Assembly: GCA_021414245.1 (NCBI GenBank)
Contig: JAIOOU010000015.1
Coordinates: forward strand, 372,001 to 436,000
Direction: 5' to 3'
From: Chloroflexota bacterium
GTDB taxonomy: Bacteria > Chloroflexota > Anaerolineae > Anaerolineales > Villigracilaceae
DNA: 64,000 bases
The position numbers and the translations under genes are program-made. The notes beneath the pieces were generated by a model. That model saw only the letters and a program-made list of their open reading frames with translations. It made no database searches and was not told the DNA's origin. This document shows, piece by piece, positions 5,425-62,927 of the stretch. Every line of letters begins with the position of its first letter. The stretch's first letter is position 1.

Positions 5425-5550
5425 TTCCGGTTCCTTAATATGGCGGCAATTTAACCATATTTATTTAAAGATTGTACCCGTGCGGCCGCCGTTATCATAT
5501 GCAGGAGCAGGCCGGTAATAAGTCCGCCCTCGCCGCCGGCAGACCTGTCC

Positions 5551-6717: not shown

Positions 6718-6817
6718 GAACAAATTGTAGCAGAAAACATCCTGGCAGGGTTTTTATGCCGGGCGGGCCGGAGCCCTGCGAGATCCACTTTTACATGGGA
6801 GATTGGTACAGGCATGA

Positions 6818-6851
6818 AAAGTGGACGTTCCTTGAAAGGAACGTCCACTTT
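6818..6851 (-). terminator. Rho-independent terminator
   Basis: A near-perfect 16-bp stem around GTGGACGTTCC, followed by T residues on the minus strand, lies just downstream of the membrane protein gene ending at 6904. Confidence 0.8.
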
Positions 6852-6903
6852 GAACTTAAGTTTATTCGCGGCGACCCGGTACATGCAAACAGGGATATCC
6901 TTT

Positions 6904-7395
6904 TTAAAACGGTTTGAAGATCATCAACCACAGGACAACGGCGGGAATCCCGTAGCCGACGACTGCCCATTGAACCGGATTGATATTTTTGAGCAGTGCG
7001 GCCACTTCATCGGGGCTGGAAGGAGGTTCCGGGGGGAATTCCTTCGAACCTTTCATGTAGGGCAGGCCCACCAGGCGGCGTAATTGCTTGATCTGTTTCT
7101 CATTGACCAGACCCATCCAGACCACAACAAACAATATTAATACGATCGAGAGCCAGATCCAGACCCTGTTCCAGATGTGGATGATGAAAGGCATGATCAG
7201 GCCGGTCAGGCCCATGACCAGGAAGGAGAACATGTACAACGGAAAGGTGGAAACGGACAGGTCCAGCATGGCGCGAATGCGGACGTAATCCGTCTCCCTG
7301 CGGACCCTGAAGACCATCGCCGCGGCGGCGCCGTGAGCCAGGAAGAAGGTGATCGCCGATAAAACGTGCAGAAAAACAAGCCAGCGGATAATCAT
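6904..7395 (-). CDS. Small four-helix membrane protein, DUF2269/CopD-like
   Basis: 163 residues from the ATG at 7395, chosen because GGAGAG lies about seven bases upstream. A longer frame exists to 7617 but it overlaps the preceding lipoprotein gene and has out-of-frame composition. The start MIIRWLVFLHVLSAITFFLA and three further hydrophobic stretches give four membrane spans, with a conserved-looking His in the first helix (LHVLSA) and another in FLAHGAAA. This layout is typical of DUF2269-type integral membrane proteins of unknown role. A short cytoplasmic stretch carries KEFPPEPPSSPDE. It follows the lipoprotein gene by 46 bases and probably shares its transcript. Function unknown. Confidence 0.8.
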   Translation of the reverse strand: MIIRWLVFLHVLSAITFFLAHGAAAAMVFRVRRETDYVRIRAMLDLSVSTFPLYMFSFLVMGLTGLIMPFIIHIWNRVWIWLSIVLILFVVVWMGLVNEKQIKQLRRLVGLPYMKGSKEFPPEPPSSPDEVAALLKNINPVQWAVVGYGIPAVVLWLMIFKPF

Positions 7396-7441
7396 GTATT
7401 TCTCTCCTTCACCAATAAATTTCATTAAACAACACAAAAGA

Positions 7442-9088
7442 TCACGGGGTCGGGAAGGTCTCAATACCCCAGACATTTTCCAGCAGGACCGTTCTCGCCC
7501 CGGTGGCGGGATTGTAACGGACAAGATCGGAATTGGCAGTGTCTGTATTAACGAACCAGCAAACCAGAGACCCGTCTTCGAGGAGGTCGGGGCAGTCCGT
7601 GATCTGGAGGTTGACATCCTCCCAATTCAGGGCGGCCGATGTTTTGAAGTCATACACGTAATAGAAACTTCGATAAACAGCATGTTTCGTGCCCGGCACC
7701 GAGGCGTTCAAATTCACAAGGATGCCGTCATCCAGGAACGTAATGGTTGCAAGATAATCCTCGAGTTCCGGGTCGAGCGGCATCTCAAAAAGCGGACGAT
7801 CCGCAACCGCATCGTAGATAAAAAACGAAGTTTTGTCGATGGTTTGCATGAGGATATACCGTCCATCGGCAGAGACATCCTTCGTAAAGACGCCTTCGAC
7901 ATAGAGCCCCACAAGGCGCGCCTGCCCATCGGGTGTCATGCGAAAAAGAGGGATATCCCCCCCTTCCAGGCCGGGATAAGTCTTCACAATGGCGGGGACA
8001 TTTGAAAGCCCGACATAAGGCGGCCCTGCAAACAACAAACTTTGATCGGGCAGGACCTGGCGGACTTCAACATAGGATGTGGAACCTTCGATGGCCCACG
8101 GCAGGCTATAGGTCAGTGCGGCATCGTTCCCAAACGGCGCAACCACATTCATCTCACAGGCATCCAGGCAATTCCAGGCATATACAAGAATCCTGCCATC
8201 CCTCAAGGGACTTGCCATGCGTGTTTTATCGGTGAAATCGATTTGGTTTCCATTGACATCCAGAATGATGTTTTCATTTCTTGGATACCAGAGATCGCCC
8301 CCGGGAGAGGCATATATCCTGTCGGGCGGGCCCTCGCTGACATGGACCGTTCGGGCCGCGCCGGTGGCCAGGTCCAACTCACGGATCTCGATCTTCCGGG
8401 AATCCGCAATGCCGTTCAGGTAACGCAGGAAGCGGCCATCCTGCGAGATGTGAAACCAGTGCCTGTCCCCGCTGCCATCAAACGGGTTGCGGTTGGCCTG
8501 TTGATCGATCAGGGTTGCGGTTAACGATCTTAGATCCACGAAGTACACAGGGCCTGCATTTACCGCGCCAACCACCTCGCTTTGAGCAGCGTCCCAGGTT
8601 ACATAGGTGAAGACGGCGGAATCAGCATATGCAGCCACCACCGCGCGCCCCGGTTGTGAATAATCCGTGTTGAAAGGAAAAGGCTCGGAAGGAAGTTTGA
8701 TCTTTTGCATTCCATCCGGGGTAAGCAGATACAGGCGCAGGGTATCGTTTGAGTCGAGGAAGAGCAGGGCGCGTTCATGGTCGAGGGAGACGGCGATGGG
8801 AATCAGATCATCCGCCAAATCCAGAGCCTCCGTCTCGCGCCGCTCCCCAAGCTGATTCACCCCGATCACTTTTTTCGTATCCCGGTCAAAGCCCCAATAC
8901 CAGCGCGCGGGAGGCGGCACGGGTGTGGGAGGCTGAACGGGTTCGGCGGTGGCAGGGTTTGCGTCTACAGGCTGGGACGTGACAGTTGATTCGGCCTGTT
9001 CGATGGGTGACGGGCTCGTGACAGCCGGACTCGCACAGGCGCTCAGGAACATGACCATTGCCAACAGCGTGGGGATGATTCGTTTCAT
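7442..9088 (-). CDS. Secreted lipoprotein with WD/beta-propeller-like body
   Basis: 548 residues. The N-terminus is a lipoprotein signal, with a positively charged start, a hydrophobic stretch and lipobox LSAC (Cys about 18). A Ser/Thr/Pro linker to about residue 60 follows. The body contains many short repeats ending in patterns such as DGRFLRYLN, DGRYILMQ and DGQARLVGLY, typical of the blades of a TolB/WD40-like propeller. No catalytic motif is visible, so it is probably a surface-anchored binding or scaffold protein. A good ribosome site (GGAGG) precedes the ATG. No confident family name can be given. Confidence 0.85.
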   Translation of the reverse strand: MKRIIPTLLAMVMFLSACASPAVTSPSPIEQAESTVTSQPVDANPATAEPVQPPTPVPPPARWYWGFDRDTKKVIGVNQLGERRETEALDLADDLIPIAVSLDHERALLFLDSNDTLRLYLLTPDGMQKIKLPSEPFPFNTDYSQPGRAVVAAYADSAVFTYVTWDAAQSEVVGAVNAGPVYFVDLRSLTATLIDQQANRNPFDGSGDRHWFHISQDGRFLRYLNGIADSRKIEIRELDLATGAARTVHVSEGPPDRIYASPGGDLWYPRNENIILDVNGNQIDFTDKTRMASPLRDGRILVYAWNCLDACEMNVVAPFGNDAALTYSLPWAIEGSTSYVEVRQVLPDQSLLFAGPPYVGLSNVPAIVKTYPGLEGGDIPLFRMTPDGQARLVGLYVEGVFTKDVSADGRYILMQTIDKTSFFIYDAVADRPLFEMPLDPELEDYLATITFLDDGILVNLNASVPGTKHAVYRSFYYVYDFKTSAALNWEDVNLQITDCPDLLEDGSLVCWFVNTDTANSDLVRYNPATGARTVLLENVWGIETFPTP

Positions 9089-9117
9089 GTTTCCTCCGTG
9101 GGAAAGTAAAACAAAAA

Positions 9118-9138
9118 GGGCGACCCAATGGGTCGCCC
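9118..9138 (-). terminator. Rho-independent terminator of ettA
   Basis: GGGCGACCC, a three-base loop and GGGTCGCCC, followed on the minus strand by a T-rich tract, nine bases past the ettA stop. Confidence 0.85.
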
Positions 9139-9146
9139 CTACGACA

Positions 9147-10817
<1,671 letters not shown>

Positions 10818-10850
10818 AGTGATTTGGGTTCTTTCGTTTGAGTTGGCTGG

Positions 10851-10928
10851 TTACTGTTTGTTGTGAGCGCTGCGCGCGATGCGTCCCACTTTATTCATGG
10901 AGTAGATTACGAGCGATTCATTTGCCAT
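10851..10928 (-). CDS. 25-residue mini-ORF duplicating the EttA N-terminus
   Basis: It encodes MANESLVIYSMNKVGRIARS followed by five residues and TAA, ending 33 bases before the ettA ATG. Residues 3-17 are identical to EttA residues 3-17, yet ten of those fifteen codons differ synonymously. AAAGAGAAAG lies just upstream of the ATG as a weak ribosome site. The sequence shows either the surviving head of a diverged second ettA or a leader ORF whose peptide has been kept. It is unlikely to be a recent tandem duplication because the bases have diverged while the residues have not. Translation is unproven. Confidence 0.5.
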   Translation of the reverse strand: MANESLVIYSMNKVGRIARSAHNKQ

Positions 10929-11234
10929 TGTTGCTTTCTCTTTGGTTCAAACCGTGGATTTATTCGTTTCCGGAAACGAAAGCGGAACGAATAGGGGTGG
11001 CAGGTGAGGAGGACGAAGGATTCATGTGCCATAACGGGGTGATTTTACCTTATGATTGACCGCGAAGGGCACGAAGGGAGGGGAGTAACTTCTCTTTATT
11101 AAAACAAATACACAAATTATTCCAAACATCCTGTTCGGGATAATTTGTTGTTAGCTCCTGAATAGGCTTGAAAGCTCTTTGGATAATTACAGATCACGAA
11201 AGGTGTTGTTTTTCAAAGACAATACAATAAACGA
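10929..11234. other. Intergenic region between ettA and the McrB/DUF2357 island
   Basis: About 300 bases with no supported gene. GC drops from left to right at the edge of the AT-rich defence genes. One degenerate copy of the ACCGCGAAG repeat lies at 11062-11085. No clear terminator for the DUF2357 gene was found. Confidence 0.5.
11062..11085. repeat. Copy of dispersed ACCGCGAAG repeat
   Basis: ACCGCGAAGGGCACGAAG here resembles the sequences at 52180-52216 and 56771-56845. All three are intergenic. Confidence 0.5.
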
Positions 11235-13523
11235 TCAGTTAACTCTTACTTTCATCAATTCTGTCATAGTGACCGCGAACGGCAAGGATGAAGCATAGCC
11301 AGGCTTATAACCTTCAAGTTTTCTAATATCCCAAACAAGGCCGTCAAATTCTTTATTGCCAGTTTTGGTAATTGTGTATACTAAATAATACTCATGAGAC
11401 GGGTTTTCATATCCCATAGCAGCCATTTCAAGCTTTGAGAACACCCTGGGACCACGATCTTTAATTCTCCACAAGTATCCTGTTTTCAATTCATCTCTAA
11501 GATGAATTAACACATATTCTGCGCCGGCCACTTCCGGGGTGAGACGCAACGACCCTCGATCAGAGTCCATGCGAAAATTATAGAGACCTCTTTCTTTAAT
11601 CCATTCATATCTTCCGCTATTCTCACAATAACCAATCAAAACACTAGTTTCCGATGGCGGTCTTACCCTGCCGCCCTCATTAGATTCAGGAAGCGGCTCT
11701 CTAATCTCAAAATCAGGCCTGTTTTTATAAATATCATAAACATGATAAGTAAGTCTTTCCTGTTGGGATGAACGATTAACGAAATGTTCGACTACGTCCT
11801 TTACAAAATTCTTTAGAGCTTCAGTTCCATCATTTGCTTTGGATGGACGGACCGGAAAAGCACCTAACCCGGGAATCAACTCATGAAAACCTTTCGCGAT
11901 GTAATCATCAGTACCGGGATACAGAACATATGCACCAACAGTCCTCCTAACTGCATCCTTGTATGCGTGCATTTTAAGCAGGTCAGCTCTTTTGTAAACA
12001 CCTTTATTTTGATCAAGTTTTTCTACATCCAGATCTTCTTCTGCCGACGAAGTATCAACCCCGAAGAGATCGGTTATTCCTGTCACCTTGTACTTAGCAT
12101 CGAAATGAATATGCAGAATCAATTCCTGACTTTCCGCTTCTGCCTCCGAAAACTCATAGGGCCATATCGTCAAGGTGTAATCCGGGCGCATATTTTTTGA
12201 CCAGCTACCGGCAGAGGGGTATTCCTTATTTCCCGAAAAAGTCCTGTTATAACTGAATTTAATAGCAAGTTTCCTTGAGCCTCTATCGTATATTCCCCTT
12301 AGTGCAAAAAATTTACCAGACTTTAATTTCAGGCCAAGCCCATCGGAGGTAGATTCTATCAAGCTTTCCACTTCCACAGGCGCGAAATTGAAAATAGTAC
12401 CAAAGAGCTCCAACAGCTTAAAAAACGACCAGTATTCATATAAGGTGGCCACATCTCTTTTTCCCGCCTTATATACATCATCACCACCATGCCACATCAA
12501 TTTTGAAGCCAGATCAAACATTAACCAAGACTTGAGTATCTCTCGATATCCTTCCTTCCTCTGTAAAACCGGACTATTAAGAGATAGGGTAGCAGGCTGT
12601 GATATTTGTTTGAAAATCTGGTGATCAAGAATATTATCTAGTCTTTCTTCCAGCTGCCGTGCTTCCCGGCATTCACGGCTTATAGAATCCATTTTGTTTT
12701 TTACATCTGAGCAGAAAATTCTGTAAACAGAAAGAACGTGTTTAATAAACTGGTTCTCAACAGTATCCGGCGAATCATGCTTTTCTCTTACGACAACTTT
12801 TGCAGGCACAGTATCCAGCACAGAATGCATATAATGATTTTCCGGGAGTGGAATCCTGTTTGATCCCGAGGCAATCTGGCGCATAATTGAGTTGTTTATA
12901 CGCACGCCCTTGGTTATATTGGTCTTACCCTCACGATCGGCCCATCGGGTTACAGGAGCGTTAAGTATGCGGTGCACAGCTTCTAAAAATTCAGAAGTAT
13001 CAATAACCGATTTTATAAACGCAAATTGTTGATACAGGGTGTTTGAATTGCTGGAGTAATTCTGAGAAAGATACTGGGTTACAGGAGATGTATACTGCAT
13101 AAGCAGGTCGGTGCATCTCTCGGCTATATCTTCCAGCATTGTTCGATAGTCATCGCGATAAGAACTTTTTACAGAACGCACCTCAAGATCAATATAGCCG
13201 CAGATGTTTCCGGTTGCAGTTTCAACCACCTCGACGGACAGGGTTCCTGTATAAATACCCGGGGCAATACGACCGCCTGACGAGTTGGAGTTTTTAAAAC
13301 GCCGCACAACTCCGGGAATTTCAACGAGCTGATATCCTTTATCGATACTATATTCATAATTACAGCTTTCCTGTAATTGAACATTAGCTTCACCAAACTC
13401 AGCTGCCTCAGCTTCACTAATTTCAATAAGAGACTGTTCACCGGATTCCGGATAAAGTATTACTTTAACAGCCTTCAAATTGCGCGACTCAAGAGGTGAG
13501 ACAAACAAAGAAACAGATTTCAT
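11235..13523 (-). CDS. DUF2357 nuclease, McrC-like partner of McrB
   Basis: 762 residues. The N-terminal ~115 residues are beta-rich, a helical central part follows, and a PD-(D/E)xK nuclease core has RPDYTL (Pro447-Asp448) and HFDAKYK (Asp475, Lys477), followed by LLKMHAYKDAV (about 515-525), the usual helix of this fold. This is the DUF2357 family, which accompanies McrB-like AAA+ motors and supplies the cutting subunit. The final ~150 residues (about 610-762) form a separate beta-rich domain with LWRIKDRGPRVFSK, which could be a base-recognition module (inference only). The gene starts nine bases after the McrB stop, so the two form an operon. Codon use and base composition are AT-rich against both flanks, a sign of transfer. 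Confidence 0.88.
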   Translation of the reverse strand: MKSVSLFVSPLESRNLKAVKVILYPESGEQSLIEISEAEAAEFGEANVQLQESCNYEYSIDKGYQLVEIPGVVRRFKNSNSSGGRIAPGIYTGTLSVEVVETATGNICGYIDLEVRSVKSSYRDDYRTMLEDIAERCTDLLMQYTSPVTQYLSQNYSSNSNTLYQQFAFIKSVIDTSEFLEAVHRILNAPVTRWADREGKTNITKGVRINNSIMRQIASGSNRIPLPENHYMHSVLDTVPAKVVVREKHDSPDTVENQFIKHVLSVYRIFCSDVKNKMDSISRECREARQLEERLDNILDHQIFKQISQPATLSLNSPVLQRKEGYREILKSWLMFDLASKLMWHGGDDVYKAGKRDVATLYEYWSFFKLLELFGTIFNFAPVEVESLIESTSDGLGLKLKSGKFFALRGIYDRGSRKLAIKFSYNRTFSGNKEYPSAGSWSKNMRPDYTLTIWPYEFSEAEAESQELILHIHFDAKYKVTGITDLFGVDTSSAEEDLDVEKLDQNKGVYKRADLLKMHAYKDAVRRTVGAYVLYPGTDDYIAKGFHELIPGLGAFPVRPSKANDGTEALKNFVKDVVEHFVNRSSQQERLTYHVYDIYKNRPDFEIREPLPESNEGGRVRPPSETSVLIGYCENSGRYEWIKERGLYNFRMDSDRGSLRLTPEVAGAEYVLIHLRDELKTGYLWRIKDRGPRVFSKLEMAAMGYENPSHEYYLVYTITKTGNKEFDGLVWDIRKLEGYKPGYASSLPFAVTMTELMKVRVN

Positions 13524-13532
13524 GCTCAGCCT

Positions 13533-15329
13533 TTAGGCCTCAGCAAAACTTGTAAATCCATCCTGAACAACTCGTTTGTACATTCTTGTAATTTTTTCTA
13601 GAGAGATTGGAAAACGAACTACATCTTCATTTACAGGTTCGCCTGCTTCACTCTTTAGAACATCTTCTATATTTACTGTCGAGTCTTCCCTAAGACATAG
13701 AGCAGCAAGAGTTTTTAGTACCGGCTCCAACTTTCTACGGGACCCGTGAACTTTCGGCAATAGTTTTTGAATAATAGCCGCATCAGTTATTTCTTCAACA
13801 GACCATTCCACATCATTTTCCAGAAGCATGGTAACAACACTTGCAAACCTGAATATTTCTGAAGCCGTTCTGTAACCAAATTCCGCGTCGGTTTTTTTAA
13901 GTTCGTTGAAAAATTTCATCAAAGTTCCATTCAACGCCTCGGCTTTATCATAGACGTCAGCTTTTTTAACGGCTTTTTCTACAAAATCAGCAGCCATTCC
14001 CGCCCCTTGGCCCGTCAATTTTTCTAAATCAGGTTTCACAGGATTCTGGAGGAAATCGCTCATCTCTTCTTTGGTTACACGGAATTCAAGAACCCCCGCT
14101 CTATCAAGCACTTTGGGACTGAACATATATGTCGTCTCATCGATATTAACAGTTCCGATAACAAACAGGTTTCCAGGTAATTTTATTTTGTCCGGAATAC
14201 CTTCTTTCCATTCACCATTTTCTTTCCAGATATCGCTATCTGGATGGAGAGGTATTTCTTCATTTGATTCCATTGCGCTTAAGAAGTCAGCAAAATATCT
14301 TTCTACATGACTAAGATTCATCTCATCTAAAATCAGGAAATAAGGCTTGTTAGAGTTTTCAGGCTTCGAAGCTTCAATCAATAAATCCAGAGCACCGTTT
14401 TCCGGCTTTATATATTTTCCAGGCTCAAGTGCATTTGGATATCCTAAAAGAGGTTCTCTGTTGGTCCAGTCAGCGCCAACAGGGATCATGCAGATTTGTT
14501 TATTTTCTGCGCAGATCCAGCGGGAAAACGCCTGAGCCAATTTGGTTTTTCCTGAACCGGAAAGACCGGTAAGAATTACAAAAGGTTTTGCACACAGTAA
14601 GCAAACAAAACGAACAAAGAGGGATTGGCTAAATTTTAGTCCTGAAGATTCCATAATCTCTTCGAAGCGGTTTACGTTAAACATTTTATCTTCAGAAATA
14701 GGCATATTACCCTCTCTATTAGACTGGACTTTATTAGTATTAGACTCCTCAAAACTTTTTGCACATTTTTGATATTCTCTTAATATGAACTCCAAATCTG
14801 AAGTAAGCTTTTCATCTTCGAGATCTGAAATTTTATATTTTTTGTAAAACATATTAGTTTCTTCATACAACTTACCTTTACTATTACTTTTATAGGGTTG
14901 AGTTTTAACAAGGCTATTTTTAGGTAATTTTCCTTTTTCAAACCCCTCAAGCCCTGCTATTCTTGAAAAAACAAATCTTTCGTACTTGTTTTGTATATCT
15001 TCTTCTTGGGTGGTAGATCCTTGATTCAAAGTTAAAAAAATATCTTTAAAATCATCGCTTATTAAGTAGACAACGTAAAAACCATTTGTAGCTCCAGAAG
15101 ATACTCTGTCGTCGAAAACGCCAATCCATGGGTAGTAGGTGGTATTTCCTTGACCTATAGAACCTTTTACAGAAAGATTGGTAAACGATTTAATCTTGAG
15201 GAACTCTTCAATCTGTTGAGGAATAGCATCAACAAGCAGCTTATAGCTTTTTAAGTCTTTGCTTAGATGCTTATCTACTTCGGTTTGATATGCTTTACTA
15301 AATTCCTTTAGGCTATTTGACAAAGACAT
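13533..15329 (-). CDS. McrB-like AAA+ motor with MrcB N-terminal domain
   Basis: 598 residues from the ATG at 15329, chosen because GAGGTG lies six bases upstream. A start seven codons earlier lacks this site. Using the longer frame's numbering, residues 10-200 carry the MrcB-type N-terminal domain (DUF3578) with YYPWIGVFDD, a domain that in relatives reads modified DNA. The AAA_5 domain has Walker A GLSGSGKT (262-269), Walker B YFLILDEMN (about 337-345) and the McrB-type sensor VNIDET (401-406). It would translocate or remodel DNA with the DUF2357 nuclease as a type IV restriction-like defence. Like its partner it is AT-rich. Substrate modification is unknown. Confidence 0.9.
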   Translation of the reverse strand: MSLSNSLKEFSKAYQTEVDKHLSKDLKSYKLLVDAIPQQIEEFLKIKSFTNLSVKGSIGQGNTTYYPWIGVFDDRVSSGATNGFYVVYLISDDFKDIFLTLNQGSTTQEEDIQNKYERFVFSRIAGLEGFEKGKLPKNSLVKTQPYKSNSKGKLYEETNMFYKKYKISDLEDEKLTSDLEFILREYQKCAKSFEESNTNKVQSNREGNMPISEDKMFNVNRFEEIMESSGLKFSQSLFVRFVCLLCAKPFVILTGLSGSGKTKLAQAFSRWICAENKQICMIPVGADWTNREPLLGYPNALEPGKYIKPENGALDLLIEASKPENSNKPYFLILDEMNLSHVERYFADFLSAMESNEEIPLHPDSDIWKENGEWKEGIPDKIKLPGNLFVIGTVNIDETTYMFSPKVLDRAGVLEFRVTKEEMSDFLQNPVKPDLEKLTGQGAGMAADFVEKAVKKADVYDKAEALNGTLMKFFNELKKTDAEFGYRTASEIFRFASVVTMLLENDVEWSVEEITDAAIIQKLLPKVHGSRRKLEPVLKTLAALCLREDSTVNIEDVLKSEAGEPVNEDVVRFPISLEKITRMYKRVVQDGFTSFAEA

Positions 15330-15600
15330 ACACACCTCACTTAGTAACATGTCGTAACTTTACAGATTAAGAAGATAAATCATTAAAATTAAGTCTACCA
15401 TAAAGAGTTTCATGTTTGACAAGTTAAGAAATCAAGCCTGAGACACTATGTATTGCATGGTGCATATGTGAGAACACGAGTTGAAACATCCTGAAAAAGT
15501 GGCTGCAAAGCTAAAAATCAATTCGAAAAATGATAGCGGGTCAGACCAGCGCTCCCGGAACCGGTCCGCTTGCGCGCAAACCTCCGCAAGATCGGCGCTC

Positions 15601-15628
15601 TTGACAAAACCAGGGACGTGCATATAAT
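15601..15628 (+). promoter_or_regulatory. Promoter of the membrane protein gene
   Basis: TTGACA at 15601-15606 and TATAAT at 15623-15628, 16 bases apart. The -10 lies inside the left arm of the operator palindrome, so a bound repressor would block it. Confidence 0.8.
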
Positions 15629-15667
15629 GTGACTGGTCAGTCATATGACTGACCAGTCACATTATAT
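15622..15667. promoter_or_regulatory. TetR-type operator, 46-bp perfect palindrome
   Basis: The palindrome is centred on CATATG at 15642-15647, with arms built on TGACTGGTCAGTCA. All 23 base pairs match. It overlaps the -10 and start of transcription of a gene pair that includes a TetR regulator, the usual autoregulatory layout. Confidence 0.85.
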
Positions 15668-15678
15668 TGGAGGTAAAA

Positions 15679-16194
15679 ATGGAGTTTTTCAACGATTTTC
15701 TGGCCTGGGCCTGGGCGCGTCACCACAACATCTTGAGCTGGTACATCCGCCCCATGTTCATCATCCCCTTTATTTATTTCGCCTACCGGCGCAGTTGGAA
15801 GGGCATGGCCGTCACCCTGCTGGCACTGCTGACCAGCATGTTCTGGTTCCCGGCCCCCGCAAGCGTCGACCCGATGGTCAGCCAGTTCCTGGAAGCCGAG
15901 AGGGAATTCATCCTCGGGCCCTTAAGCGCGCAAAAGATATTCTTCTGGCTGACCGTGCCGCTCTTCTTCGTCCTGCTGGCCCTGGCATTCTGGAAGCGTT
16001 CATGGGGTTGGGGCGTGGCGGTCATCAACATTGCGGCGCTCGGCAAGGTGGCCTGGAGCGTGGTCGAAGGCGGCCAATCCGGCTGGGCCGTGCTGGTGCC
16101 GGCCGTGATCGGGATGATCGTGTGTGACCTGGCGGTCTACCTTGGGGTGCGGTATCTGCATGCCAGAAAACCCCGGCCCGCCGCCGCGGGTTAA
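15679..16194 (+). CDS. Membrane protein of unknown function, TetR-regulated
   Basis: 171 residues. The ATG at 15679 is preceded by TTGGAGG at six bases. A TTG four codons upstream lies inside the ribosome site and is rejected. Four to five hydrophobic segments are seen, the first two around residues 22-55 (MFIIPFIYF, MAVTLLALLTSMFWF), the others near 90-110 and 120-160, and the C-terminus is basic. No catalytic motif or known transporter signature was recognised. Because the TetR gene follows by 32 bases and the palindrome covers the promoter, this protein is probably the target of that regulator, for example a membrane response to a small lipophilic compound (inference). Confidence 0.8.
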   Translation: MEFFNDFLAWAWARHHNILSWYIRPMFIIPFIYFAYRRSWKGMAVTLLALLTSMFWFPAPASVDPMVSQFLEAEREFILGPLSAQKIFFWLTVPLFFVLLALAFWKRSWGWGVAVINIAALGKVAWSVVEGGQSGWAVLVPAVIGMIVCDLAVYLGVRYLHARKPRPAAAG

Positions 16195-16226
16195 CCCCAT
16201 CCGGCAGGTAAGTTTATAATCCAGCC

Positions 16227-16856
16227 ATGCCAAAACCAACCTTCCTGAACCTGCCCCGGGAAAAACAAAATGCATTCCTCGAGGTGGCCCTGCCCGAGTT
16301 CGCAGACAACGATTACAACAGCGCCTCGGTCTCGAGGATCGTTGAAAGGGCCGGCATTGCGAAGGGCAGTGTCTATCAATATTTCGAAGACAAGCAGGAC
16401 CTGTTCATGTACCTGGTGGAGGTCTCCAACCAGTCCATGCTGGAGTTCGTCAAACAGACCCCGCCGCCGGCCCCGTCCGCGGATTTCTTTACAATGCTGC
16501 GCTGGCAGATGTCGGCCACCATCCAGGCCTCCCTGAAACATCCCGTTCATGCGAAGCTGCTGCGCAGGGCCTATTCCGCGCCGCTGCCGTTTCAGGATGC
16601 GATCTTTGAAAATGCGCGCAGGATCCGCGAGGAGCATTTTCAGGCCATGATCCAGCAGGCACAGGCCTCCGGTCAACTGGCCCCCGGCCTGGATGTGCAG
16701 GTTGCCAGCTTCATGGTGCAGGGCATGCTCAACGAACTGGGTCCCTTTCTGCAATCCAGGTTCGGAGAACAAACGGACGACTGGGCGCAGCGGCCCGAAG
16801 TGCATGCGGTGTTCGATCAGGTGATCACGATCCTGAAAAACGGGTTGGGAAAATAA
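16227..16856 (+). CDS. TetR/AcrR family transcriptional regulator
   Basis: 209 residues. The helix-turn-helix lies in residues about 28-50 (SVSRIVERAGIAKGSVYQYF followed by EDKQDLF), the hallmark of the family, and the rest is an alpha-helical ligand domain ending ILKNGLGK. It would bind the palindrome at 15622 and repress the preceding membrane protein gene and itself. A second promoter is likely: TATAAT at 16215-16220 lies exactly six bases before the ATG, with no ribosome site, which suggests a leaderless transcript for the regulator alone. The inducer is unknown. Confidence 0.92.
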   Translation: MPKPTFLNLPREKQNAFLEVALPEFADNDYNSASVSRIVERAGIAKGSVYQYFEDKQDLFMYLVEVSNQSMLEFVKQTPPPAPSADFFTMLRWQMSATIQASLKHPVHAKLLRRAYSAPLPFQDAIFENARRIREEHFQAMIQQAQASGQLAPGLDVQVASFMVQGMLNELGPFLQSRFGEQTDDWAQRPEVHAVFDQVITILKNGLGK

Positions 16857-16876
16857 ATGCGAATCCCACCAAACAT

Positions 16877-16910
16877 AAAGCGGGCGGACCCTTTCAGGTC
16901 CGCCCGCTTT
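16877..16910. terminator. Bidirectional terminator, inside direct repeat copy A
   Basis: A 14-bp perfect stem (AAAGCGGGCGGACC and its complement) with a six-base loop after the tetR gene. The same hairpin recurs at 17902. Confidence 0.85.
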
Positions 16911-16995
16911 GATATACCTGCTAAAAGGGGATCAACTCGACCAGTGGGTCAAACCAGCGCTCCGAGAACAGGTCCACCTGCGAGATGGACGGGTC
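16877..16995. repeat. 119-bp direct repeat, copy A (relic of DUF3592 gene 3' end)
   Basis: It matches 17902-18020 with nine mismatches. Read on the minus strand it encodes the last residues of the DUF3592 protein (DLFSERWFDPLVELIPF, stop) plus its terminator. The AbrB/PIN module sits between the two copies. Confidence 0.9.
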
Positions 16996-17033
16996 CGCGG
17001 TAGAGAAGAAAATAAGAGAATCAAGATTCATGC

Positions 17034-17039
17034 TATAAT
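17034..17039 (+). promoter_or_regulatory. -10 element of the abrB-pin operon
   Basis: TATAAT, immediately followed by CTTACTGGTAAG, a near-palindrome that could be the antitoxin operator. No good -35 is seen. Confidence 0.5.
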
Positions 17040-17063
17040 CTTACTGGTAAGAAGGAGCAGAAT

Positions 17064-17327
17064 ATGGAAACATTAGCCACCACCCGTATGTCATCGAAGG
17101 GGCAGATCGTCATCCCTGAGTCCATTCGCAAGCAGTTGAACCTTCAGGAAGGCGCACAATTTATCGTTGTTGGAGATGGCGATGTGGTTGTGTTGAAAGT
17201 GGTCAACCTGCCTGATATGAGCCAGTTCGATGAGTTGATCAAGCAGGCGCGTCAACAAGCAAGGGAAGCTGGACTGACGGAGGGGGATGTCTCGTCCGCT
17301 GTGGCGAAGGCGCGGGGAAAAAAATGA
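17064..17327 (+). CDS. AbrB/SpoVT-fold antitoxin
   Basis: 87 residues. Residues 5-50 form the swapped-hairpin AbrB DNA-binding fold, with TTRMSSKGQIVIPESIRKQL and LQEGAQF. The C-terminal helix is charged and typical of the part that wraps the toxin. AAGGAGCAG stands before the ATG. The stop overlaps the PIN start (ATGA), as in toxin-antitoxin operons. It should bind its own promoter, possibly at the CTTACTGGTAAG element, and neutralise the PIN protein by direct contact. Confidence 0.9.
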   Translation: METLATTRMSSKGQIVIPESIRKQLNLQEGAQFIVVGDGDVVVLKVVNLPDMSQFDELIKQARQQAREAGLTEGDVSSAVAKARGKK

Positions 17328-17752
17328 AGATCGTTCTGGACTTGAAAGTTGTGATGGATACGAATGTATTTGTCTCCGGGGTCTTCTTCAAAGGTCCACC
17401 ATATGAGATATTGAAAGCCTGGCAGGAGGGCAAGTTTGAACTGGTTGTTTCGCAGGAAATATTGGATGAGTATCGCAGGGTCGGTCAGATATTGTCCGCG
17501 GAACGCCCCAAGGTGGACTTGACTCCGATACTGACGTTTATGATCGAACACGCCAAAGTCTATCAGCCCGTGGAACTTGAGGAATCGATCTGCGAAGACC
17601 CTGACGATGATAAATTCTTTGCCTGTGCCCTGGCAAGCGGCAGTCAGGTTATTGTCAGCGGAGACAAGCATTTGTTGAAAGTCTCTGGTTATCAGGGGAT
17701 TGAAGTTTTGAAGCCGCGCGAGTTTGTGGATCGATATTTGGTGGAAGAATAG
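17324..17752 (+). CDS. PIN-domain toxin (putative ribonuclease)
   Basis: 142 residues, PIN family of the TIGR00305 type. The acidic active site is visible: VMDTNVF (Asp12), a Glu in SQEILDEY, DPDDDKFFACAL (about 88-100) and SGDKHLL (Asp about 112). PIN toxins cut RNA in the cytoplasm with Mg2+ or Mn2+. Overlap with the antitoxin by four bases supports coupling. It lies between two 119-bp direct repeats, so the pair may have moved as a unit. The RNA target cannot be inferred. Confidence 0.9.
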   Translation: MKIVLDLKVVMDTNVFVSGVFFKGPPYEILKAWQEGKFELVVSQEILDEYRRVGQILSAERPKVDLTPILTFMIEHAKVYQPVELEESICEDPDDDKFFACALASGSQVIVSGDKHLLKVSGYQGIEVLKPREFVDRYLVEE

Positions 17753-17756
17753 ATCC

Positions 17757-17882
17757 ATGCAGGCGGGAACAGAGAAAGCCAGCGAAATGAAGAAAGCGGG
17801 GTGGAGGGAGAAGGTGCTGAACGAGATGCGGCTGGGGATAGTCCGCGTGTGGGAACTCCCGGAAAAGTTTTGGCAGAACTGA
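17757..17882 (+). CDS. Possible 41-residue ORF after the PIN gene
   Basis: An ATG five bases after the PIN stop opens a 41-codon frame beginning MQAGTEKASEMKKAGWREKV and ending LPEKFWQN. The composition is protein-like (amphipathic, Lys/Glu/Trp), but there is no clear ribosome site and no recognised family. It lies inside the repeat-bounded segment. It may be an accessory peptide or the remnant of a longer gene. Confidence 0.3.
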   Translation: MQAGTEKASEMKKAGWREKVLNEMRLGIVRVWELPEKFWQN

Positions 17883-17901
17883 AAAATCTATTGGATAGAA
17901 C

Positions 17902-17934
17902 AAAGCAGGCGGACCCATACAGGTCCGCCCGCTT
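17902..17934. terminator. Bidirectional terminator, inside direct repeat copy B
   Basis: The GCAGGCGGACC / GGTCCGCCCGC stem ends the DUF3592 gene (minus strand) and the toxin operon (plus strand). Confidence 0.85.
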
Positions 17935-18020
17935 GGATATACCTGCTAAAAGGGGATCAACTCGATCAGCGGGTCAAACCAGCGCTCCGAGAACAGGTCC
18001 ACCTGCGAGATGCTTGGGTC
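17902..18020. repeat. 119-bp direct repeat, copy B (intact 3' end of DUF3592 gene)
   Basis: Second copy of the sequence at 16877-16995, offset 1025 bases. It includes the real 3' end of the DUF3592 gene. Confidence 0.9.
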
Positions 18021-18389
18021 ATTAGGGTCGTAGATCACATTGATCGAATCACCCATGCCGTAGCCGCCGATGAACTTCTGGTTGCGCACCGAATATGTGC
18101 GGCCGTCCACGCTGTACTCCACGGTCAGCCGGTAATAGGTCACATCACTTGGGTCATTGTCATTAGTGTCGCTCGGCTCCGCCTCAGTGACCGTGCCGGG
18201 GACGATCACGCCCACCTTGCGCAGGTGCAGGCTTTTGTTTAGATACAGGCTGTCATCCAGCGCGAGGGGCAGCATGAAGACCACCAGGCTGCAGCTCAGG
18301 CACACGAAGATCAACAAAAAAGCCAGCCAGCGGATCGGTCCGCTTTTGGGGAGTACGATCACTCTCGGGTTGTTGTTCGGGTTGTCCAT
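17946..18389 (-). CDS. DUF3592-like membrane protein
   Basis: 147 residues. One long hydrophobic helix (about 20-45, WLAFLLIFVCLSCSLVVFML) is followed by an extracytoplasmic beta domain with VPGTVTEAE, YYRLTVEYSVDGRTY and GDSINVIYDPNDPSISQV, the pattern of DUF3592 proteins. Their function is unknown. GGAGG lies before the ATG and a TATAAT at 18422-18427 (minus strand) gives a normal leader. Its 3' end is duplicated at 16877-16995 and a more diverged piece lies at 15536-15576, so this locus has been a site of repeated rearrangement. Confidence 0.8.
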   Translation of the reverse strand: MDNPNNNPRVIVLPKSGPIRWLAFLLIFVCLSCSLVVFMLPLALDDSLYLNKSLHLRKVGVIVPGTVTEAEPSDTNDNDPSDVTYYRLTVEYSVDGRTYSVRNQKFIGGYGMGDSINVIYDPNDPSISQVDLFSERWFDPLIELIPF

Positions 18390-18447
18390 TTGCCGCCTCC
18401 AAACCTGTAAGAAGATGCCGAATTATACCTGTCGTCCCACGCGGTGT

Positions 18448-19431
18448 TCATGGGCAATCCTGGGATGTCTTCCCGACCGGCAGGCCCAGCGCTTCATAGA
18501 CGGGCACGCCGTCCCAGTCCGCGGGGATGGGCAGGCCCAATGCGAACGCGGCGGTGGCGGCCGTGTCCATGGTGTGCACACGCGTCTGCAATTGACCCAC
18601 GTACAGGCCAGGCCCGGAGGCGATCCACGGAATGGTCATATCCTCGGGCAGGCTGGAACCGTGAATGGTGCCATGCCCGCCGTGGTCGGAGGTCACGATC
18701 AGCAGGGTCTCGCCGCGCAATCCGCGCGCATCCAACGCAGACAGCAGTTCGCCCAGGGCTTCGTCCGCGCGAAAGACCACGCTCAACTGTTCGGGCGAGA
18801 GCCAGCCGTAGACATGTCCCATGTCGTCGGTGGTGGCAAAGTGGATGAAGAGCACGACAAAGTCCGCGGGGAAATCCGCCAGCAGGTTCTGCATCAGCAC
18901 TTTGTCCCGGTCATTGACCCACACGAAGGCATCCAGGCTGGAAGCATCGGTCACCTGCTGCAGTTTTTCCTTGCCTGTGTAGATCAGCGTGCGCAGGCCG
19001 GCCGCATGCGCCAGGTCGAACAGGTCCACGCCCTGCGCGATCCCGTTTTCGGGCAGGTAATCGTTCCAGTCCACGCCGTGTTTGGCGGGGCACAGCCCGG
19101 TCAACATGGAGGCGTGCGCGGGCAGGGTGGCGCTCGGGTGTACGGTTTGGGCGCTGAGTGTATAAGCGCCGGTCTTCATCAGGGCCAGCAGGTTCGGCAT
19201 GGGCGCGGCTTGAATCGCATCCGGGCGCAGCCCGTCAATGCTCAGGATGATCACGCGCCGGATGGCTGGCCCCGGGGTGGATGTAAAAGTTGGGGGAGGA
19301 GTAAAGGTCAGTGTGGGGGCGGGCGCGGCCGTCAGAGTCGCAGTGGCTGTGGGGATCGGAGCCGCCATCTGACAGGCAGCCAGCAGCAGGCAGACCCAGG
19401 CCGAACCCATAAAATGACGGTGGATTTTCAT
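18448..19431 (-). CDS. Lipoprotein of the alkaline phosphatase / type I phosphodiesterase family
   Basis: 327 residues from the ATG at 19431, where a lipoprotein signal begins (hydrophobic CLLLAACQ, lipobox LAAC). A frame 57 codons longer exists but begins with non-signal sequence. A Thr/Pro linker precedes the metallohydrolase domain: IILSIDGLRPD (metal Asp), HPSATLPAHASMLTGL (nucleophile Thr or Ser), FATTDDMGH and VTSDHGGHG (metal ligands). The family cleaves phosphodiesters, pyrophosphates or phosphomonoesters outside the cell. The C-terminus TMDTAATAAFALGLPIP is also typical. The substrate is unknown. Confidence 0.88.
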   Translation of the reverse strand: MKIHRHFMGSAWVCLLLAACQMAAPIPTATATLTAAPAPTLTFTPPPTFTSTPGPAIRRVIILSIDGLRPDAIQAAPMPNLLALMKTGAYTLSAQTVHPSATLPAHASMLTGLCPAKHGVDWNDYLPENGIAQGVDLFDLAHAAGLRTLIYTGKEKLQQVTDASSLDAFVWVNDRDKVLMQNLLADFPADFVVLFIHFATTDDMGHVYGWLSPEQLSVVFRADEALGELLSALDARGLRGETLLIVTSDHGGHGTIHGSSLPEDMTIPWIASGPGLYVGQLQTRVHTMDTAATAAFALGLPIPADWDGVPVYEALGLPVGKTSQDCP

Positions 19432-19598
19432 CGCCCCCGATTGTAACGCAGGGGACCGGTCACCCCCAGCGCTGGCATGCGCCTGTAGCGGGGGCAAATC
19501 GAAGAAAGTACGTAGGATGTACATAGGATGTACGTTCGCATCTGCCGCACGGGTCCGCAGACCAGCCCCCATATCTTGCCGTCCTGCCTGGGCATTTT

Positions 19599-20132
19599 TC
19601 AAATTGCAAGTTTCTTCCTGAAGGAATTAAATTCCTTCTCTTTTTCCTCCACCCTGGACCAGCGTTTTATTTCCTTCAGATCCACCTGCCGGTTTTTGGC
19701 AACCAAAACAGCCTGCTCCAATCCCTGCAAGTCGTTCCAGAAATAGTATGCGCACAACCTGTCTTTGACACAGTCTGTGGGGGAGAGCACCCGCAAAGTC
19801 CCTGTTGAGAGTTGGAATTCACTAATCTCTTTCACAGGCTCTTCACCAACAGAGAGTGGCCCATCGGGGAATTCGATAAAGAAAGTCGTTTCGGGATGGA
19901 TGAAGTAGCGTCCCTGCTCATGGAAACCGAGTCTTTCCATCACGGCTTTGATCTTGCTTCGCCGTGAAAAACTTGTGTTGATCAGGTCAAGGTCTTTTGA
20001 AACGTATTTGTTGCTACTGTAAAACGAAACAGCGCTCCCGCCTGATAGCACAACTTGAATTCCCTCTTCTTGTAATGAATCTTGAACATATGCCGCCAGT
20101 TCCACCTGACTCATGCTCTTGATCTTTTTCAT
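19599..20132 (-). CDS. Nucleotidyltransferase-fold protein (AbiEii-like toxin candidate)
   Basis: 177 residues. LSGGSAVSFYSSNKYVSKDLD carries the G-G-S nucleotide loop and D-x-D-type acidic pair (KDLDLI) of minimal nucleotidyltransferases, and DCVKDRLCAYYFW follows as in AbiEii-like and DUF6036-like proteins. Such enzymes in toxin pairs add nucleotides to tRNA or protein. Its start overlaps the stop of the winged-helix gene by four bases (ATGA), which fits an antitoxin-toxin operon. The family assignment is from motif reading only and a housekeeping transferase remains possible. Confidence 0.72.
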   Translation of the reverse strand: MKKIKSMSQVELAAYVQDSLQEEGIQVVLSGGSAVSFYSSNKYVSKDLDLINTSFSRRSKIKAVMERLGFHEQGRYFIHPETTFFIEFPDGPLSVGEEPVKEISEFQLSTGTLRVLSPTDCVKDRLCAYYFWNDLQGLEQAVLVAKNRQVDLKEIKRWSRVEEKEKEFNSFRKKLAI

Positions 20133-60826: not shown

Positions 60827-61897
60827 ATGCTCAAACTCCCCGGCCTGATCGATCCGCACGTCCACTTGCGCGAACCCGGCGCAACCCACAAGGAAGATTT
60901 TGACTCCGGTACTTCCGCAGCTTTGGCCGGCGGGATCACAACTGTGCTGGCCATGCCGAATACCAAACCCCCGATTTTTGACGCGGACACCCTCGATCTG
61001 GCCCTGACAACTGCAAAACAAAAGGCCCGCTGTGATTATGGTCAATATCTTGGCGCCGGCCCGGATAACTCCAATTGGCAAAGGAACGCAAGTGCCTCCG
61101 CCAGGTCCGCCGGGTTGAAAATGTATCTTGATTCTACTTTTGGCGAACTCCGCCTCGATGACATGACTCTCTGGCAGCCGCACTTCGAAAACTGGCCAAA
61201 GAGCATGCCCATTGTGGCTCACAGTGAAAGCCGCAGCATGGCCGCAGCCATCCTATTTGCCGCCATGCATGACCGCCCGGTACACATTGCCCACATTTCA
61301 TTAAAAGAAGAAGTGCTGCTGATCAAAGCCGCAAAGGAACGCGGCATCAAGGTGACTTGTGAGGTATGCCCGCATCATTTATTCCTCTCCAAAGAGGATA
61401 TTCCCGCCATCAGTCACGGACATCCCGGGCGGGGAGAGGTCCGTCCGCGCCTGGCAACACCGCAGGATGTGGATAGCCTGTGGAAAAATCTGGATGTAAT
61501 CGACTGTTTTGCCACCGATCATGCGCCTCATACGATCGAAGAAAAGGATTCAGAGAATCCTCCGCCTGGTTTTCCAGGCTTGGAGACCATTCTGCCCTTG
61601 TTGTTGACCGCAGTTTCCGAATCCAGACTCACAATCCCCGATTTAATCGCAAAGATGTACACCAACCCGAAGAGAATCTTCAATCTACCGGATCAACCTG
61701 AGACCTGGGTCGAAGTGGACGAGAACGAAACTTATGAAATCAAGGCTGCTGAGCAATTCACGCGTTGTAATTGGACCCCTTTCGAGGGTTGGAAGGTGAA
61801 GGGCAGGGTCCGCAAAGTGGTCTTGCGGGGCAGGACGGCCTTCGAAGACGGGACCGTTCAGGTTGAAGCAGGCTATGGTCAAAATGTGAGAGGGTAA
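60827..61897 (+). CDS. pyrC: Dihydroorotase, CAD-like
   Basis: 356 residues. Metal site: [10 protein letters not shown] (His11, His13), Lys98 in [14 protein letters not shown], His in PIVAHSES and VHIAHIS, and Asp in [10 protein letters not shown]. Later motifs [33 protein letters not shown] and HWTPFEG-like [21 protein letters not shown] follow the DHOase domain of animal CAD protein nearly step for step. It closes carbamoyl aspartate to dihydroorotate in pyrimidine synthesis. It has no fused ATCase or CPSase. The last residues GYGQNVRG also match CAD. Confidence 0.95.
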
Positions 61898-61989
61898 ATC
61901 CTTTCATTGAACCAGCTTGGAAGCCGAAAGATGGTCATTTTTTAGGGTGCAAATTGAAGGGCTTATAAATTGCCTTATTGCTATCCGAA

Positions 61990-62440
61990 ATGCCTCGTTC
62001 TTTTGCCCATATTTGGGGGGTCTTGTTTAGACAACTATTTCTCAAAAGTCCCAAATCTGTGGATAACCGCCCTCAAACTGTGGAGAACTGCCCCCGCCTG
62101 TGGACAATAGGCACAATTGTTCGAAAAATGAACCGGCATGATTGTTTTTCATACCCCCATATATGGGGGGTAAAATTTTCAAAAACCAAGATATAGAAAA
62201 TTCAAAAAAGTGGCGATAATGACCAGGGCATGCGGTCATTAATGACCACCCCTGTGGATAACTTATCAGACACTCCTCCACAGTTGGAGATTGATCGAAA
62301 ATAGCGGCCAGCCGAAGGGGTGGGATGATCCGCACATACGTTCCCACGGGTGGGGTTGAATGTCTTTTGTCCACACTATCCACAGAGCCTACTACTATTA
62401 CGATTCCATATAAATATATATATACTACTTGAAACTGATA
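61990..62440. other. Candidate chromosomal replication origin (oriC)
   Basis: No gene lies in 61898-62506. Seven DnaA-box-like 9-mers: TGTGGATAA (62058), TGTGGAGAA (62079), TGTGGACAA (62099), TGTGGATAA (62253), TCCTCCACA (62274), TTGTCCACA (62367), CTATCCACA (62376). The first three are spaced 20-21 bases, two helical turns. After the last box come GAGCC, then TACTACTATTACGAT (62390-62404), DnaA-trio-like triplets, then an AT run to 62428. This is the order of a DnaA-trio unwinding system. Two CCCATAT(T/A)TGGGGGGT motifs and an AATGACC hairpin (62218-62240) also lie here. Confidence 0.75.
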
Positions 62441-62457
62441 AGTGAAAAAAGTACAAT
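62429..62457 (+). promoter_or_regulatory. Promoter of spoVS
   Basis: TTGAAA at 62429-62434 and TACAAT at 62452-62457, 17 bases apart. The -35 touches the AT-rich part of the candidate origin. Confidence 0.7.
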
Positions 62458-62506
62458 TCACTGAGAACAAGTCCGTTCCCTTCTTAGCCAACCTTGGGAG
62501 GTTGCC

Positions 62507-62767
62507 ATGGATATGATCAAAGTTTCAGCCAACTCCCGTACCTCTGCAGTCGCCGGGGCAATCGCGGGAGTGATCCGCGAGCATAAACGGGCGGAAGTGC
62601 AAGCCATAGGAGCTGGGGCTGTCAACCAAGCCGTCAAAGCGCTGGTCCTTGCCACCGGCTATCTGAAAAGCGACGGGATCGACGTGGTCTGTGTCCCGGA
62701 ATTCGCGGAGGTAACCATCGATGAAAAGGTGCGCACGGCGGTTAAATTGGTGATCGAACCTCGATAA
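62507..62767 (+). CDS. spoVS: SpoVS family protein
   Basis: 86 residues, the normal length, with GGGAGG before the ATG. IKVSANSRTSAVAGAIAGVI, AIGAGAVNQAVKALVLA and FAEVTIDEKVRTAVKLVIEP are the SpoVS signatures (Alba-like fold). In Bacillus it affects spore development and septation, and the family is also present in many bacteria that do not form spores, where it may bind nucleic acid. Here it sits next to the candidate origin. No other sporulation gene is in the window. Confidence 0.96.
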   Translation: MDMIKVSANSRTSAVAGAIAGVIREHKRAEVQAIGAGAVNQAVKALVLATGYLKSDGIDVVCVPEFAEVTIDEKVRTAVKLVIEPR

Positions 62768-62772
62768 TCATG

Positions 62773-62812
62773 AAAAAGAGAGGCTGCCTTGCACAAGGCA
62801 GCCTCTCTTTTT
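62773..62812 (+). terminator. Rho-independent terminator of spoVS
   Basis: AGAGAGGCTGCCTT, GCAC loop and AAGGCAGCCTCTCT, then T5. Confidence 0.95.
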
Positions 62813-62837
62813 ATTAGTCAGACAGGACAGGGTGGCG

Positions 62838-62843
62838 TATAAT
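62838..62843 (+). promoter_or_regulatory. -10 element of the lamin-tail protein gene
   Basis: TATAAT, 85 bases before the ATG. No convincing -35. Confidence 0.4.
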
Positions 62844-62927
62844 CTTCAAAATTGGACGCAACGCTTCAAACGGCCCCGCCGCCTGTCACCCATATCGGAC
62901 AGTGTCCACCCCAAAAAAAAACACCCC

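Follow-up and report, generated by a model that had tools for sequence, protein, structure and literature searches.

The window, the whole 64-kb stretch of DNA analysed here (C14:372001-436000), belongs to an Anaerolineales (Chloroflexota) bacterium whose genome comprises 3.87 Mb in 17 contigs, with contig C14 accounting for 465,607 bp. Between the stop of a pyrC-like gene at position 61897 and the start of spoVS at 62507 lies a gap of 609 bp, matching the gene-free interval of about 600 bases described in an earlier model-made note that drew on the letters alone (hereafter the sequence-only reading), which had proposed a replication origin at this place. One mechanical open reading frame overlaps the gap (62042-62491, minus strand, TTG start, 149 aa) and is read here as a chance frame, and Rfam gave no match in 61800-62900. 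A sigma-70-like promoter, likely that of spoVS, occupies the right part of the gap. The features of the locus are collected in Table 1. We also observed that CTATCCGAAAT, farther upstream than the inverted repeat TTGTTTAGACAA, is likewise kept in the genus alignment.

Table 1. Features of the pyrC-spoVS gap and of its flanking genes, in window coordinates.
Feature	Position	Strand	Basis or remark
pyrC-like gene	60827..61897	+	Pfam Amidohydro_1; left neighbour in genus; name pyrC from the sequence-only reading
Intergenic region with predicted oriC	61898..62506		gene-call borders
Upstream palindrome copy GCCCATATTTGGGG, 12/14	62005..62018		genus alignment, match scan
Conserved inverted repeat TTGTTTAGACAA	62023..62034		shortly 5' of first DnaA box; genus alignment
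DnaA-box triad TGTGGATAA-12-TGTGGAGAA-11-TGTGGACAA	62058..62107	+	boxes at 62058, 62079, 62099; relatives share spacing
Palindrome CCCCATATATGGGG	62155..62168		97 bp from triad start; also upstream of dnaA
Fourth direct DnaA box TGTGGATAA	62253..62261	+	aligned across genus
Inverted DnaA box TCCTCCACA, one mismatch	62274..62282	-	box scan and genus alignment
Possible third palindrome copy TCCCACGGGTGGGG, weak, 11/14	62342..62355		genus alignment, match scan
Inverted exact DnaA box TTGTCCACA, first of unwinding module	62367..62375	-	box scan and genus alignment
Inverted DnaA box CTATCCACA, one mismatch, tandem with 62367 box	62376..62384	-	box scan and genus alignment
GC spacer GAGC	62385..62388		sequence
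Four DnaA-trios, CTA CTA CTA TTA on the plus strand	62389..62400		sequence, genus alignment, motif scan
AT run ATATAAATATATATATA	62408..62424		sequence
Sigma-70-like promoter TTGAAA-17-TACAAT	62429..62457	+	just 3' of AT run
spoVS	62507..62767	+	sole spoVS match in genome

Five exact TGTGGANAA boxes lie in the gap, four on the plus strand (62058, 62079, 62099 and 62253) and one on the minus strand (62367), and two more inverted boxes carry one mismatch each (62274, 62376). The sequence-only reading had counted four direct and three inverted boxes; the direct ones all stand as exact matches, whereas the inverted ones reach three only if a mismatch is allowed in two of them. As expected of an oriC, the boxes cluster above chance. 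Shuffled sequence predicts 2.12 exact boxes for the 64-kb window, which holds 9 (a number reached by 1/100 shuffles), and five of the nine fall inside 318 bp, for which the expectation is ~0.01 from the shuffles and ~0.02 from the genome's own rate (211 exact boxes in 3.87 Mb).

The right half of the gap is ordered like a DnaA-trio unwinding module, with tandem boxes, a 13-bp spacer, CTACTACTATTA and an AT run. Its tail reads TTGTCCACA-CTATCCACA-GAGC-CTA-CTA-CTA-TTA-CGA and then enters the AT run, so the succession of boxes, short GC spacer, trios and AT run that had been proposed is present. The exact box and the first trio are separated by 13 bp (62376-62388). In its main text, a survey of trio systems gives 13 bp as the commonest spacing between box and trios, and a rule that asks for three or more trios, each with A in the middle, no farther than 16 bp from a DnaA box (PMC8287927); with its 13-bp spacer and four trios, the present module falls under this rule. 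The AT-rich unwinding element expected beside the boxes of an oriC adjoins them here: the AT-richest 50-bp stretch in the last 4 kb of the window begins at 62408, and the AT run is likely the first DNA to melt. As single-stranded DNA, the unwinding region showed no unusual fold (z 1.29).

Relatives share both the array of three direct boxes and the trios. A flexible-gap version of the three-box pattern was found in 127/150 family genomes and was missing from 23/150, and among the family matches listed most span exactly 50 bp. At least 119 stretches of GTDB genome contigs carry the array with its fixed 50-bp length; judged by record title, the 119 matches listed comprise 113 from Chloroflexota, 5 from other groups and 1 labelled 'bacterium', which suggests that the rigid array recurs mainly in Chloroflexota. 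One Anaerolineaceae contig holds two copies 2 kb apart (L061:488-2593). Pooling the genus, family and GTDB sets, which overlap, gave 164 loci with the window included, the GTDB part consisting of the matches listed. Among these 164, spoVS follows within 1.5 kb downstream in 86 and pyrC matches in 32, with many loci ending early. Within the genus set spoVS follows the array in 20/21 loci (L183 ends early) and pyrC precedes it in 17/21, so the order pyrC-oriC-spoVS, whose conservation the sequence-only reading had left to be checked, holds among close relatives.

In an alignment of the genus loci (n = 21) both tandem boxes and CCTACTAnTATTAC are almost invariant. A strict two-trio motif occurs at the same place in 20/20 evaluable genus loci (window included; L183 is too short) and in 16/23 evaluable family loci, with 7/23 lacking it, against shuffle expectations of 0.03 and 0.01. 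Among the GTDB matches listed, 58/114 loci carry it and 56/114 do not (shuffle expectation 0.15). Control stretches upstream gave 0/20 for the genus, 0/21 for the family and 1/109 among the GTDB matches listed. A stricter first expression, requiring at least four trios of which the first is CTA, was satisfied by 48/164 loci listed. In 14 Chloroflexia-type loci the strict motif is found in 2/14 and a one-trio form in 13/14. This set comprises 13 loci so classed by name and L125, whose array is nearly that of L102; two loci named Herpetosiphon (L078) and Chloroflexus (L144) were left out because in match position or in length of contig they coincide with genomes of the window's genus or family.

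Beyond boxes and trios, the palindrome CCCCATATATGGGG is tied to the array. Scored at 12/14 or better, it lies within 150 bp after the array in 21/21 genus loci, 23/24 family loci and 55/117 GTDB loci among the matches listed, while the interval 700-850 bp beyond the array, taken as a control, gave 0/20, 0/22 and 0/105 (genus, family and GTDB listed). It follows the array in 0/14 Chloroflexia-type loci and in 1/8 loci where dnaA adjoins the array. Offsets between array and palindrome cluster at 76, 86-87 and 97-98, in steps of about one helical turn; the value of 0.0001 obtained for this clustering assumes that distinct offsets are independent, an assumption that fails among relatives.

The palindrome also lies upstream of dnaA. 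In this genome a near-match at C6:144033 stands 332 bp before the gene, and such a copy, 229 to 384 bp ahead of the start codon, was found in 33/34 dnaA loci tested (30 of the genus, this one included, and 4 from other genera). Its score was reached in 0/100 shuffles at every locus except L200 (2/100). The one exception is G131 (L329), where an exact copy precedes the DnaA C-terminal domain by 1.4 kb, so the start of that gene was probably misread. By sequence reading, the gene directly upstream of dnaA here is histidine-kinase-like (C6:142227-143900; L028:8227-9900). Across 31 congeneric genomes, exact CCCCAYATRTGGGG is present in 19/31 and the exact 14-mer CCCATATATGGGGG in 29/31, with 0/31 for a reversed control. 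The 14-mer occupies 63 places, 23 at dnaA, 17 at oriC and 23 elsewhere; automatic classing had given 23, 15 and 25, and two places (G129:C329, G114:C261) were moved to oriC because spoVS and pyrC lie beside the palindrome. Fourteen of the 23 places elsewhere belong to G063 and G120. In these two genomes (G063:C1 and several contigs of G120) extra palindromes stand at other loci, several of them paired ~110-145 bp apart. The six remaining one-mismatch places in the present genome are all located within open frames 120 codons or longer, so we saw no third target of the palindrome.

A palindrome common to oriC and to the region upstream of dnaA suggests a putative factor that couples the two. We judge the case evenly balanced that, in Anaerolineales, one putative sequence-specific factor binds CCCCATATATGGGG at oriC and the copy ~330 bp upstream of dnaA and so times initiation in place of dnaA-oriC linkage. 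The offsets further suggest that its oriC site would keep helical phase with the DnaA array as part of the same coupling. We know of no factor that has this palindrome as its site. That the palindrome is instead a terminator hairpin or a chance repeat, and no protein site, we consider unlikely, although several observations lean that way: an exact copy in G141:C123 (L348) resembles a terminator stem, the dnaA copy starts 133 bp after the stop of the histidine-kinase-like frame, 23/63 exact 14-mer places are at neither oriC nor dnaA, 12/31 genomes lack exact CCCCAYATRTGGGG, and the Chloroflexia-type loci lack the palindrome after the array. On the other side, there is no T-run directly after it at either oriC or dnaA, a terminator scan called the adjoining minus-strand stem (62155-62135) rather than the palindrome itself, the reversed 14-mer pattern has no match in the 31 genomes, and the palindrome is kept at both sites throughout genus and family, at offsets from the array that step by about one helical turn.

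Since the genome is split into 17 contigs, we read GC skew contig by contig, on the whole of C14 and in samples of C6, the contig with the sole dnaA match. The cumulative minimum of all 465,607 bp of C14 lies at 436,607, 2.1 kb beyond the end of the gap, so that, on the contig scale, the skew switch expected of an oriC, and predicted for this site, is borne out about 2 kb away. Replication genes and parS, likewise expected near an origin, are close by, with dnaA distant: dnaN lies ~20 kb from the gap (C14:454,231-455,361), and a scan of C14 with the generally known parS consensus (up to 2 mismatches) returned only 457,218 (exact) and 457,937 (1 mismatch), ~23 kb off. Gene direction fits an origin as well: long mechanical open frames point away from the site in 167/272 cases on its left and 16/21 on its right.

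The location of dnaA on another contig agrees with the sequence-only reading, which had noted that it is not adjacent. We sampled C6 in twenty 20-kb stretches. Skew was positive in 17 of them, among these the dnaA stretch and its neighbour on either side, and slightly negative in three: the first (1-20,000; ~120 kb from dnaA), the last and one near 748 kb. One exact DnaA box lies in the 441 bp upstream of dnaA. A better origin beside dnaA would have spoken against the gap, and the dnaA locus showed neither a box cluster nor a skew switch to match those at the gap.

Two relatives give a wider view of skew. In G008, a single-contig congener, we read skew over a stretch of 400 kb and found the minimum 4.3 kb from the triad; two parS-like places are 29-30 kb from the triad, a third (2 mismatches) being 109 kb off. 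Sparse samples of the whole G008 chromosome showed no clear minimum; the best half-split, 0.5-0.6 Mb from the triad (0.0172 vs 0.0119 at the triad), is noisy and ambiguous. For G058 the best half-split at 3.68-3.78 Mb agrees roughly with the triad at 3.905 Mb (0.0258 vs 0.0167), again with noise. Taken as the origin position, dnaA scores below zero in the whole-chromosome samples of both genomes, where it would lie 1.8 Mb (G008) and 0.6 Mb (G058) from the array if the contigs are circular.

The gap is not the only place in the genome with paired boxes. A scan for two same-direction boxes 5-35 bp apart returned one other place, C14:59,281-59,470, and its reversed-pattern control gave 1 match. 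This second array, as a whole at C14:59281-59502 (L012:1501-1722), is outside the window and has all its boxes in one direction. It adjoins a neuB-like gene, runs into the end of an rmlD-like frame and is 375 kb from the origin, with negative skew on both sides. Similar flanks link 19/21 loci with such arrays (single linkage). Of 27 congeneric neuB loci, 18 have three or more boxes in the 700 bp before the gene, and none of the 27 has an opposite-strand box in that interval. Frequent spacings are near 21, 33, 44 and 65 bp, close to whole helical turns. The nine loci with fewer boxes include L376, which has no upstream sequence, and G116, with its array ~1.3 kb off. Our guess is that the neuB array is a candidate titration or reactivation site for DnaA, of the datA/DARS kind.

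In many bacteria oriC lies at dnaA, and DnaA-box clusters away from origins exist. On this general background the true origin could be at dnaA and the pyrC-spoVS gap a datA/DARS-like site, which we hold to be most improbable: upstream of dnaA there is the single exact box, sampled skew is positive on both its sides, dnaA scores below zero as origin in G008 and G058, and the neuB array fits the description of such a site better. We therefore set aside an origin linked to dnaA. It is just as hard to credit that the boxes form a DnaA-regulated spoVS promoter and no origin: the conserved TTGAAA-17-TACAAT between AT run and spoVS and the frequency of spoVS after the array would suit it, but not the nearby skew minimum, dnaN and parS, nor the two loci in which array and trio, with no spoVS, lie between dnaA and dnaN, and trios at fixed spacing are needless for a promoter. 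Promoter and origin may coexist in the gap.

We conclude that the gap is very probably the chromosomal oriC of this bacterium, located apart from dnaA, with a putative palindrome factor tying its firing to dnaA. The origin call is strong as judged from the letters and their comparison, that is, from the computed order of elements, box excess, contig skew minimum, nearness to dnaN and parS, and conservation. The origin proposed by the sequence-only reading thus gains support from the skew minimum, from dnaN and parS near by, from trios in 20/20 genus loci, and from array and trio together in L063 and L069.

Initiation itself, for which we infer DnaA binding, melting and helicase loading, would proceed on the model of the B. 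subtilis work. DnaA made from the distant dnaA gene would load at two places, the direct three-box array (62058-62107), with some two helical turns from box to box, and the inverted tandem pair (62367-62384). From the latter, a DnaA-ATP filament would grow across the 4-bp GC spacer onto the trios and stretch one of the strands, so that opening of the duplex extends into the AT run, where the helicase would be loaded and forks would depart both ways. Probable binding sites of the putative factor are the palindrome at 62155 (and the copy at 62005) and the copy upstream of dnaA, an arrangement that would tie origin firing to dnaA expression.

How dnaA and origin may have come apart is indicated by other Chloroflexota. 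In 8/119 GTDB loci listed, the array begins no more than 0.8 kb after the end of a dnaA match, and in two of them (L063, L069) dnaA, the array, a box core with CTACTAC and dnaN follow in this order; the strict trio motif is missing in 5/8 of the dnaA-linked loci, in the stretch tested. Excerpted text of PMC13289182 describes dnaA and dnaN of Ktedonobacteria as colocalized with parA/parB, with a major skew V at the predicted ori. Since L063 and L069 have array and trio flanked by dnaA and dnaN, it seems that the origin and dnaA came apart in Anaerolineales. The simplest reading would be an ancestral origin between dnaA and dnaN, from which dnaA moved in Anaerolineales while dnaN and parS stayed within ~25 kb, dnaN and parS having been placed in the present genome and parS also in G008. 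In the Pelolinea submarina chromosome (L142, NZ_AP018437.1; L359), the DnaA C-terminal domain is encoded at 1.5 kb and an array with spoVS lies at ~327 kb, and the numbering appears to start from dnaA. Longilinea arvoryzae is another cultured relative in whose record the array is present.

Titles and abstract openings of open-licence literature on DnaA-trios, on Chloroflexota or Anaerolineae origins and on spoVS with oriC contained no description of this origin, and the main text of PMC8287927 has no word beginning with 'Chloroflex'. Databases may contain predicted origins for single species. If our reading is right, a phylum with few described origins in the literature searched gains a defined, portable oriC, along with a case in which origin and initiator gene have parted while dnaN and parS remain. 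It would also be a caution for work on these genomes, where dnaA should not be assumed to mark base 1 or the origin, as Pelolinea submarina illustrates. The palindrome offers a short DNA bait for fishing out the putative replication regulator, and both its factor and the neuB array are best regarded as new leads.

Set against known systems, the neuB array is like datA and DARS of E. coli in having several DnaA boxes at a locus far from oriC, a likeness of layout. The predicted origin resembles the dnaA-dnaN origins of L063 and L069 in that an array is followed by a box core and CTACTAC. In those loci, and in Ktedonobacteria as far as excerpts describe them, dnaA and dnaN flank the origin; in the present genome a different contig carries dnaA, and dnaN and parS are still found at 20-23 kb. 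For B. subtilis, whose origin layout is used here in part as general knowledge, the comparison concerns the unwinding system of oriC (BUS: DnaA-box 6/7, spacer and trios) as excerpted descriptions give it. Both have tandem boxes with the better box farther from the trios, 13 bp from that box to the first trio, repeated CTA/TTA (on the other strand 3'-GAT-5' and 3'-AAT-5') and AT-rich DNA beyond. Unlike BUS, the present locus has a direct three-box array with a fixed 21/20 spacing ~270 bp before the tandem boxes, and a conserved palindrome, and it adjoins spoVS, away from dnaA.
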